This document shows, piece after piece, positions 4,003 to 5,808 of a stretch of DNA of 64,000 bases. The notes under the pieces are model-generated. The model was not told where the DNA came from, did not search any database, and worked only from the letters and a program-made list of their open reading frames with translations. The first letter of the stretch is position 1, and the number at the start of each line of letters is the position of its first letter. The DNA is taken from the NCBI GenBank assembly GCA_028768545.1, contig CP054838.1, forward strand, positions 2,777,001-2,841,000. Reading direction: 5' to 3'. A program made the position numbers and the translations under genes. This DNA is from Desulfobacter sp. (lineage in GTDB: Bacteria > Desulfobacterota > Desulfobacteria > Desulfobacterales > Desulfobacteraceae).

Positions 4003-4114
4003 GGGAAAATAATAATATAAAGCCCAAAAGAAAGTAAACAAAAATAAGGGCAATATCTGGAGGTCGATTATAAATCAGGGCAAACAATTTATAGAACGCC
4101 GGCGATCAAGGGAT

Positions 4115-4432
4115 TTGTGGACCCGGTTATTTATCCTGGTCAATTATGTTTCCTGGACCATTCTTTTTGTCGCCCTTCTTGTCTTTCACAAGGCCCAGCC
4201 TGAATTTGATACCTTGTTTGACCGGTTTTATCAGCTGAATTTAAGAACCCACTGGGATAAGGATTTTGTCCGATATTTTGTTTACACCGCAGGGCTCGGG
4301 CTGGGTGCAAGTGCCTTTGGACTTGGTTTGGCCATTTTCAGGGCCCGCAGAAGGACCGATCATAAAATTCCCATCAGGGTTCTGGGCGGACTCTATCTTA
4401 TTCTTTTAGTTCTGGCATGGATTTTATTGTAG
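4115..4432 (+). CDS. Small membrane protein, three predicted transmembrane segments
   Basis: No family is recognised. From the TTG at 4115 the product has 105 residues with hydrophobic segments near residues 6-23, 57-76 and 86-105, and a basic loop (RARRRTDHK) before the last one. The frame stays open well upstream. A strong GGAGGT ribosome site at 4059-4064 sits five bases before an in-frame ATA (4070), giving a plausible 120-residue protein with a basic N-terminus (IERRRSRD) ahead of the first helix. The true start is therefore uncertain: TTG 4115, or a rare AUA/AUU start. It is followed by two exported-protein genes on the same strand. Confidence 0.6.
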   Translation: MWTRLFILVNYVSWTILFVALLVFHKAQPEFDTLFDRFYQLNLRTHWDKDFVRYFVYTAGLGLGASAFGLGLAIFRARRRTDHKIPIRVLGGLYLILLVLAWILL

Positions 4433-4512: not shown

Positions 4513-5304
4513 ATGAAACGTATGTTAATATGTATTGCGGCATTGGTTTTGATTTGTGTCAACACCGGTTTTGCCAGGGATTTTATGGTCTCTTTTGTGG
4601 AGGAAAATTACAAGGAAACATCCATACCCTATTCCAATACCCCAAAGATTTATCATTCCATCCAGGTGAAATCAAATGCCGGCCCTAAACTGCTGGTGCT
4701 TTCAGGTGAAAATTTAGATTACCGAAAATGGCTCCGTCAGTACATTGCCCAGGATAAAACCTTTATGGTCAATGTGCCGGAAAATGAGAATGATCAATTT
4801 ATTTCAGCCAAGGTGTATGAGGTTGATGTGACACGGGTCCATCCGTTTAACGGGGCCAAATGGGCACCCGAAGAAAAGGTTGGCAGTCGTTCACATGGGG
4901 TGCGCATGCTTCACGGGGATCGCCACATCATGGTTCTTGACCAGAATACCAAGCGCAGCAATCTCATTACCTCTGTGATTAACCGCATGGGGTACACGGC
5001 CATGATTTCCAGAAACGGTGAACAGGCGTTGCGCCTTTTTCGCACCCAGCCTGAAAAATTTAAAATGATTATTACCAACCATGAGATCCCGGGCATGAAA
5101 ACAGAACAATTTGTAAACAGCCTGCTTAAAATTGATCACCAGATTCCCATTCTCGTGGAAACCGGGTATAACAATGAAAGGGCCAGGGAAGCGTTTATAA
5201 CAAAATTTTCAGGCGCAGGAACCGTGACCGTTAAACCCGTGGTATTGGATAATCTTCAGAACACCATCAAACAACTGGTCAAGCCAGTTAAGGCTAAGGG
5301 ATGA
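4513..5304 (+). CDS. Exported protein with degenerate response-regulator receiver domain
   Basis: Starts with a clear Sec signal peptide (MKRMLICIAALVLICVNTGFA, cleavage likely after FA). An unrecognised domain follows (about residues 22-130), then a receiver-like fold from about 135 to 255. The receiver part shows IMVLDQNTKRSN at its start and the IITNHEIPGM turn where phosphorylatable receivers have D-x-x-M-P-G-M. The usual phospho-acceptor Asp is Asn here. A Lys-Pro pair (TVKPV) matches the conserved Lys near the end. It would act in the periplasm, where ordinary phosphorelay does not operate, so a structural or binding role is more likely than signalling by phosphorylation. AAGGA at 4498-4502 fixes the ATG start at 4513. 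Confidence 0.7.
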   Translation: MKRMLICIAALVLICVNTGFARDFMVSFVEENYKETSIPYSNTPKIYHSIQVKSNAGPKLLVLSGENLDYRKWLRQYIAQDKTFMVNVPENENDQFISAKVYEVDVTRVHPFNGAKWAPEEKVGSRSHGVRMLHGDRHIMVLDQNTKRSNLITSVINRMGYTAMISRNGEQALRLFRTQPEKFKMIITNHEIPGMKTEQFVNSLLKIDHQIPILVETGYNNERAREAFITKFSGAGTVTVKPVVLDNLQNTIKQLVKPVKAKG

Positions 5305-5305
5305 T

Positions 5306-5731
5306 ATGGGCCGAATACTTTTTATCGTGACAATGCTTGGGATCTTAATTTTTCCAGGCAGTTTAATGGCTAAAGATTCTGAATACAACCGGTATGATGC
5401 AGGGTTTAAAAATTTTTTAACCTGCGAACTGACACGAACCGATGCCGAGGATCATTTTAAGGGCAAAGATTTTACCATTACCATGATCAGCCTTCATTCC
5501 ATTGTCCAGGAATCGGGCATTGTGATTCTTACGGGCGCGGTTCAATGCTTTGTCAAGGATGAGTATCATACCTTGTATCCGGCCGTGGGCATTGAAATGC
5601 TGGCCGGAAAAGAGGTGGTTTTCTATTATACCATTCGAAAAAAAAATTTTTCCATTCTGGCCACAGAACTGATTCGTTTTCCGTACAAAGAAAGGTGTCC
5701 CTGGACCCGGTACTGGATTGATCAGGATTAA
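5306..5731 (+). CDS. Exported hypothetical protein
   Basis: 141 residues, no family recognised. The first 22 residues form a signal peptide (basic MGR, hydrophobic core, cleavage near SLMA). The mature part contains three cysteines (TCELT, VQCFV, ERCPW) and a run of beta-like strands (ITMISLHSIV, GIVILTGAV, EVVFYYTI). The gene starts one base after the stop of the exported receiver gene, so the two are translationally coupled and likely work together in the envelope. It ends just before a strong bidirectional terminator. Confidence 0.6.
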   Translation: MGRILFIVTMLGILIFPGSLMAKDSEYNRYDAGFKNFLTCELTRTDAEDHFKGKDFTITMISLHSIVQESGIVILTGAVQCFVKDEYHTLYPAVGIEMLAGKEVVFYYTIRKKNFSILATELIRFPYKERCPWTRYWIDQD

Positions 5732-5762
5732 GCTTTTTTTTAACGAAAAATAAAAAGAGTAT

Positions 5763-5798
5763 AAACGGCCGGGTCCCAAATTTGGGACCCGGCCGTTT
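5763..5798. terminator. Bidirectional intrinsic terminator
   Basis: A perfect 36-base palindrome: arms 5763-5780 and 5781-5798, core GGCCGGGTCCC. GTATTGTTTTTT follows on the plus strand and a T-rich run (ACTCTTTTTATTTTT) on the minus strand. It sits between the convergent exported-protein gene and ppdK, so it can end both transcripts. Confidence 0.9.
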
Positions 5799-5808
5799 GT
5801 ATTGTTTT

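Follow-up and report, generated by a model that had tools for sequence, protein, structure and literature searches.

A predicted exported pseudo-receiver and its conserved gene neighbour in the Desulfobacteraceae

Receiver domains are among the commonest signalling parts of bacteria, and their action is assumed to be confined to places that have kinases and ATP. In RitR of pneumococcus, which contains an aspartate-less receiver (ALR), the phospho-acceptor position is occupied by Asn53, and this residue is hydrogen-bonded to the first acid (PMC4395418). A 2025 review calls the activation and inactivation of pseudo-receivers a mystery (PMC12632262). Exported receivers are absent from these accounts of aspartate-less receivers and pseudo-receivers (PMC4395418, PMC12632262), and no description of an exported, periplasmic or secreted receiver was found in the open-access library searched.

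The window, which is the whole stretch of 64,000 nucleotides analysed from Desulfobacter sp., contains a gene for a receiver-bearing protein, here called A, followed by a second gene, here called B. The A gene starts with the ATG at 4513, which has AAGGA nine bases upstream, and ends with the TGA at 5302-5304. The B gene starts at 5306, one base after the stop of A. The features of the locus were as follows.

4067..4432, + strand: small membrane protein just upstream of A, same direction; start unsure (ATT 4067 or TTG 4115)
4513..5304, + strand: protein A, exported N-domain plus pseudo-receiver, 263 aa (ORF, Pfam, AlphaFold)
4513..4575, + strand: predicted Sec signal peptide of A, residues 1-21, cleavage between GFA and RD (-1/-3 conservation in relatives)
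4576..4866, + strand: N-domain of A, residues 22-118, no known family; elsewhere alone or fused to coiled coils
4918..5283, + strand: receiver-fold domain of A, residues 136-257 (PF00072, AlphaFold, PDB matches)
5077..5079, + strand: codon of Asn189, the phospho-acceptor position of A
5306..5731, + strand: protein B, 141 aa, exported, with invariant Cys 40, 81 and 131, predicted cystatin/NTF2-like
5758..5803, + strand: strong terminator-like hairpin (20 pairs counted) after B, between B and the convergent PPDK gene

With moderate confidence, we read A and B as an extracytoplasmic module of the Desulfobacteraceae in which the receiver of A is a pseudo-receiver kept for binding and B is its likely partner.

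The C-terminal part of A matched PF00072 with 36 bits against a gathering score of 30.2 (E 8.6e-9), NCBIfam gave weak receiver matches only, and Spo0F was the best sequence match among solved structures (E 2.4e-7). An AlphaFold model built with 43 family sequences had a mean pLDDT of 91, which rose to about 97 over the receiver (about residues 140-250). In this modelled domain, strands and helices alternate in the receiver order, (beta-alpha)5. The pTM was 0.56, which leaves the relative position of the two domains uncertain. The top Foldseek matches of the model were receivers only, and VIA-align gave Z 16.7 with 3jte (2.3 A, 122 residues) and Z 16.1 with the Spo0F-type 1nat. The first-pass annotation had proposed a receiver fold for this part of A, and the structure prediction and the PF00072 score above cut-off bear it out.

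The IITNHEIPGM turn sets Asn189 at the phospho-acceptor position, as that annotation had read it. The catalytic positions of the window protein hold D143, Q144, N189, T217 and K241, which is not the DD/D/T/K set. Across 45 receivers of the A family, the acceptor residue was Asn in 30, Asp in 9, Gln in 3, and His, Ser and Thr in one each. The first acidic position was Asp in 44 of the 45, and the second acidic residue (DD2) was present in just 6; the T217 position was kept in 42/45 and the Lys in 23/45. Asn189 was invariant in the clade of the window protein (28/28), where it belongs to 21 invariant columns of 122, and Asp143 and Thr217 were fixed in the same 28 proteins.

The full DD/D/T/K set was found in a single genus, g2, in five of its six species, where some chemistry or metal binding could persist. 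The K-3 position, which is aromatic for Y-T coupling, held Val or Ile in all 45 members; of the 122 receivers of the genome itself, 101 have Tyr or Phe there. At T+1, where a small residue is usual in receivers, five of the six g2 proteins have Asp; both this position and Y-T coupling have been discussed (PMC12632262). The missing K-3 aromatic and the Asp at T+1 make even the Asp-bearing members look unlike working phospho-switches. Pocket decay goes further in some sequences: L085 and L086 have Gly-Ala where the receiver pocket has a conserved Thr-Gly, and L093 lacks the residues beside the acceptor. In the A ortholog of G019 (L095:4848-5984), an insertion of about 45 residues that includes a repeated NEMES stretch directly follows the acceptor Asp; it may be genuine or may stem from the assembly.

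The state of the pocket bears on two other readings. The first is that the pocket is a site for a divalent cation or small ligand and that A and B form an envelope sensor of metal or another periplasmic condition. Asp forms would then bind Mg or Ca, and Asn forms would bind something else or be locked. Such a sensor would fit the abundance of Mg and Ca in sea water, the acidic triad that the g2 proteins keep over long branches, and the invariance of D143, N189 and T217 in the main clade. However, most members have lost metal ligands, namely the acceptor Asp and the second acid of the DD pair, and A and B are without an output domain or a transmembrane link; we regard this reading as unlikely. 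The second is that the receiver was exported with the complete catalytic set, as kept in g2, and would act outside the cytoplasm as a switch that is not driven by a kinase; the driver would be, for example, a metal, some ligand or a phosphodonor of that compartment, B would be the output, and the Asn members would be locked descendants. We give this only a slim chance and continue to favour a pseudo-receiver kept for binding.

The N-terminus of A, MKRMLICIAALVLICVNTGFA followed by RD, reads as a classic Sec signal. Residue 21 (-1) was Ala in 50/52 relatives, and residue 19 (-3) was small (G/S/C/A/V/T) in 49/52; small residues at -3 and -1 are required by signal peptidase I. The Sec signal peptide that had been assigned to A at first reading is confirmed by this conservation. 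A PF00072 search of the genome gave 136 matches, of which the 129 passing the cut-off singly were examined. A signal peptide directly before a receiver-bearing protein was found for one of these 129 domains, that of A. Other hydrophobic, signal-like stretches before the genome's receivers were rejected, as they were kinase-core glycine motifs or a hybrid-kinase membrane helix. Furthermore, Cys made up 5 of 5572 residues (0.09%) in the A receivers, compared to 128 of 13992 (0.91%) in the genome's other receivers, a comparison in which the A orthologs are related, so that the P value of the Fisher test assumes too much independence. This tenfold depletion is in the direction expected for an extracytoplasmic location, and A is predicted from its sequence to be periplasmic.

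If the N-terminal segment were instead an uncleaved anchor, the receiver would face the cytoplasm, which is where receivers elsewhere are found, and A would be an ordinary membrane-tethered pseudo-receiver. However, the n-region is positive, the hydrophobic core is short, and the small -3/-1 residues with Ala at -1 are conserved. The Cys depletion and the signal peptide of B also argue against an anchor, which we consider very improbable. The exported pseudo-receiver is therefore retained as our reading.

The N-domain (about 97 aa) had no convincing Pfam, NCBIfam or PDB-sequence match, and a Pfam search of the N-terminal part of A gave no match. Other families of the order have it as a stand-alone exported protein, mostly of 133-155 aa, and some Desulfobacteraceae carry it joined to coiled coils. 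In paralogs L079, L080, L096 and L098, a long charged coiled coil takes the place of the receiver in the fusion with the exported N-domain; the paralogs in L079 and L080 adjoin TatD- and FtsE-like genes. The solo N-domain genes had no common neighbour across families. The only further match of the N-domain in the phylum was marginal, lay in an SDR-like frame and looks spurious.

Protein B carries its own signal peptide, and its three Cys (40, 81 and 131) are invariant; we read it as a small, disulfide-capable protein. No convincing Pfam, NCBIfam or PDB-sequence match was found for B. Its model (pLDDT 83) has a helix followed by a four-stranded antiparallel sheet. The best match, a weak one, was the NTF2-like TraM domain 4ec6 (Z 8.3, 2.4 A over 85 residues), and the other matches had Z 6.3-7.4, with VirB8-like and cystatin-like folds at 6.3-7. 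From the model, the fold of B is likely cystatin/NTF2-like, and membership is not claimed. Thus, of the earlier description of B as an exported protein of unknown fold, the export stood and the unknown fold has given way to a predicted one, on a weak match.

Fifty-nine Desulfobacteraceae genomes were searched with both proteins. A receiver-bearing A together with B was found in 44, neither in 15, and one alone in none. The two genes were adjacent and in the same direction in all 43 testable genomes (the contig of G011 was excluded from this test). The two-protein module, which had been proposed from the one-base spacing, is supported by this search. A B profile found none in the 394 other genomes of a 395-genome phylum sample, and no B was found in the searched genomes with only N-domain forms. 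This absence of B where only N-domain forms occur is the main argument that B goes with the receiver and not with the N-domain. The co-occurrence and adjacency could also reflect shared regulation without contact.

A maximum-likelihood tree of the A family was rooted on stand-alone N-domain proteins. On this tree, whose exact branching is insecure (moderate support at the deepest forks, an outgroup of N-domain columns only, some long rows), the Asp-bearing lineages lay at the base, with a minimum of three Asp/non-Asp changes and six among all states. Asn is not universal, since nine of the 45 have Asp and six have Gln, His, Ser or Thr, which suggests that export preceded the loss of Asp. In the simplest order, the receiver would have joined the exported N-domain, and Asp would then have been lost several times (at least three).

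The dN/dS over the A receiver was about 0.04-0.19, similar to that of the N-domain. These low values indicate that the receiver domain is maintained by purifying selection and, with conservation across the family, that A is not a chance ORF. They also bear on the reading that the receiver has become a passive relic that has no partner of its own and serves the N-domain as an aid to folding or stability. A relic would agree with the repeated decay of catalytic residues and with an N-domain that also exists alone. However, the receiver and the N-domain have equally low dN/dS, Asn189, D143 and T217 are fixed in 28/28, and B tracks only the receiver-bearing form. We find a relic improbable and prefer a receiver retained for binding.

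The upstream genes encode an ArfB-like release factor, DUF503, a PPDK-regulator-like protein, CheR and the small membrane protein, and the downstream genes encode PPDK and ABC-F. These neighbours were syntenic in close relatives, and some of them give way to other genes in basal genera. For this reason, and because the synteny looks like that of housekeeping genes, no role of A and B was inferred from them.

The small membrane-protein gene adjoins A in many relatives and was not found in the basal genus g2. It seems to avoid ATG (window; L061, L063, L065, L066, L072-L075). Several relatives have a Shine-Dalgarno-like stretch before an in-frame ATT, ATC/ATA or CTG, and others start with TTG or GTG; in L063 and L072, no ATG, GTG or TTG occurs from the upstream stop to the conserved ERRK motif. 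This sequence pattern may reflect a conserved weak start, of which infC is a known example. In basal lineages, A and B are directly followed by polysaccharide-like genes, judged by eye from translations: Wzz-like in L084 and L093, and nucleotide-sugar dehydrogenase plus epimerase-like in L087, L090 and L095.

The signal peptide, the fold, the Asn, the missing Y-T switch, the conservation of the pair, the purifying selection and the order of events on the tree were computed here; the physiological role of A and B is one that we infer. In the proposed mechanism, an exported N-domain protein would have captured the receiver domain of A. That receiver would no longer be a phosphorylation switch, if it ever was one after export, and would be retained as a folded protein-binding domain in which the frozen pocket (Asp143, Asn189, Thr217) stabilises one conformation. 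Its face would most likely bind B, and the N-domain would contact another, presumed envelope component. A marine family of sulfate reducers thus appears, from these sequences, to have reused a switch domain as an ordinary envelope building block with a dedicated partner. With the receiver exported first and the acceptor stripped later, at least three times, the A family would offer a natural series on the receiver fold without phosphotransfer. PF00072 matches should not be counted as cytoplasmic response regulators without a signal-peptide check.

The Spo0F-type and hybrid-kinase receivers are the best matches of A in both sequence and fold. However, they are phosphorylated and cytoplasmic and have intact catalytic sets, and A differs in these respects. 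In its predicted helix and four-stranded antiparallel sheet, protein B resembles cystatin/NTF2-like extracytoplasmic domains such as TraM of pIP501 and VirB8-like ones (best Z 8.3 over 85 residues), whereas no sequence similarity was found and the Z score is near background. RitR resembles A in the receiver fold, in the Asn that replaces the acceptor Asp and in retaining the first acid, but it is a regulator that binds DNA in the cytoplasm (PMC4395418). Protein A lacks a DNA-binding domain, carries a signal peptide and has a likely partner that is predicted to lie outside the cytoplasm. The FrzS-type bacterial pseudo-receivers resemble A in having a receiver fold without the phosphotransfer residues, and they are thought to act by binding (PMC12632262). 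The review of pseudo-receivers is silent on periplasm, secretion and signal peptides, whereas A is predicted to be exported (PMC12632262). With a receiver fold and Asn189 in place of the acceptor Asp, A is an aspartate-less receiver, or pseudo-receiver, by definition. Cytoplasmic location is a habit of the characterised pseudo-receivers that lies outside this definition, and it is from this habit that A, by its predicted export, would depart.
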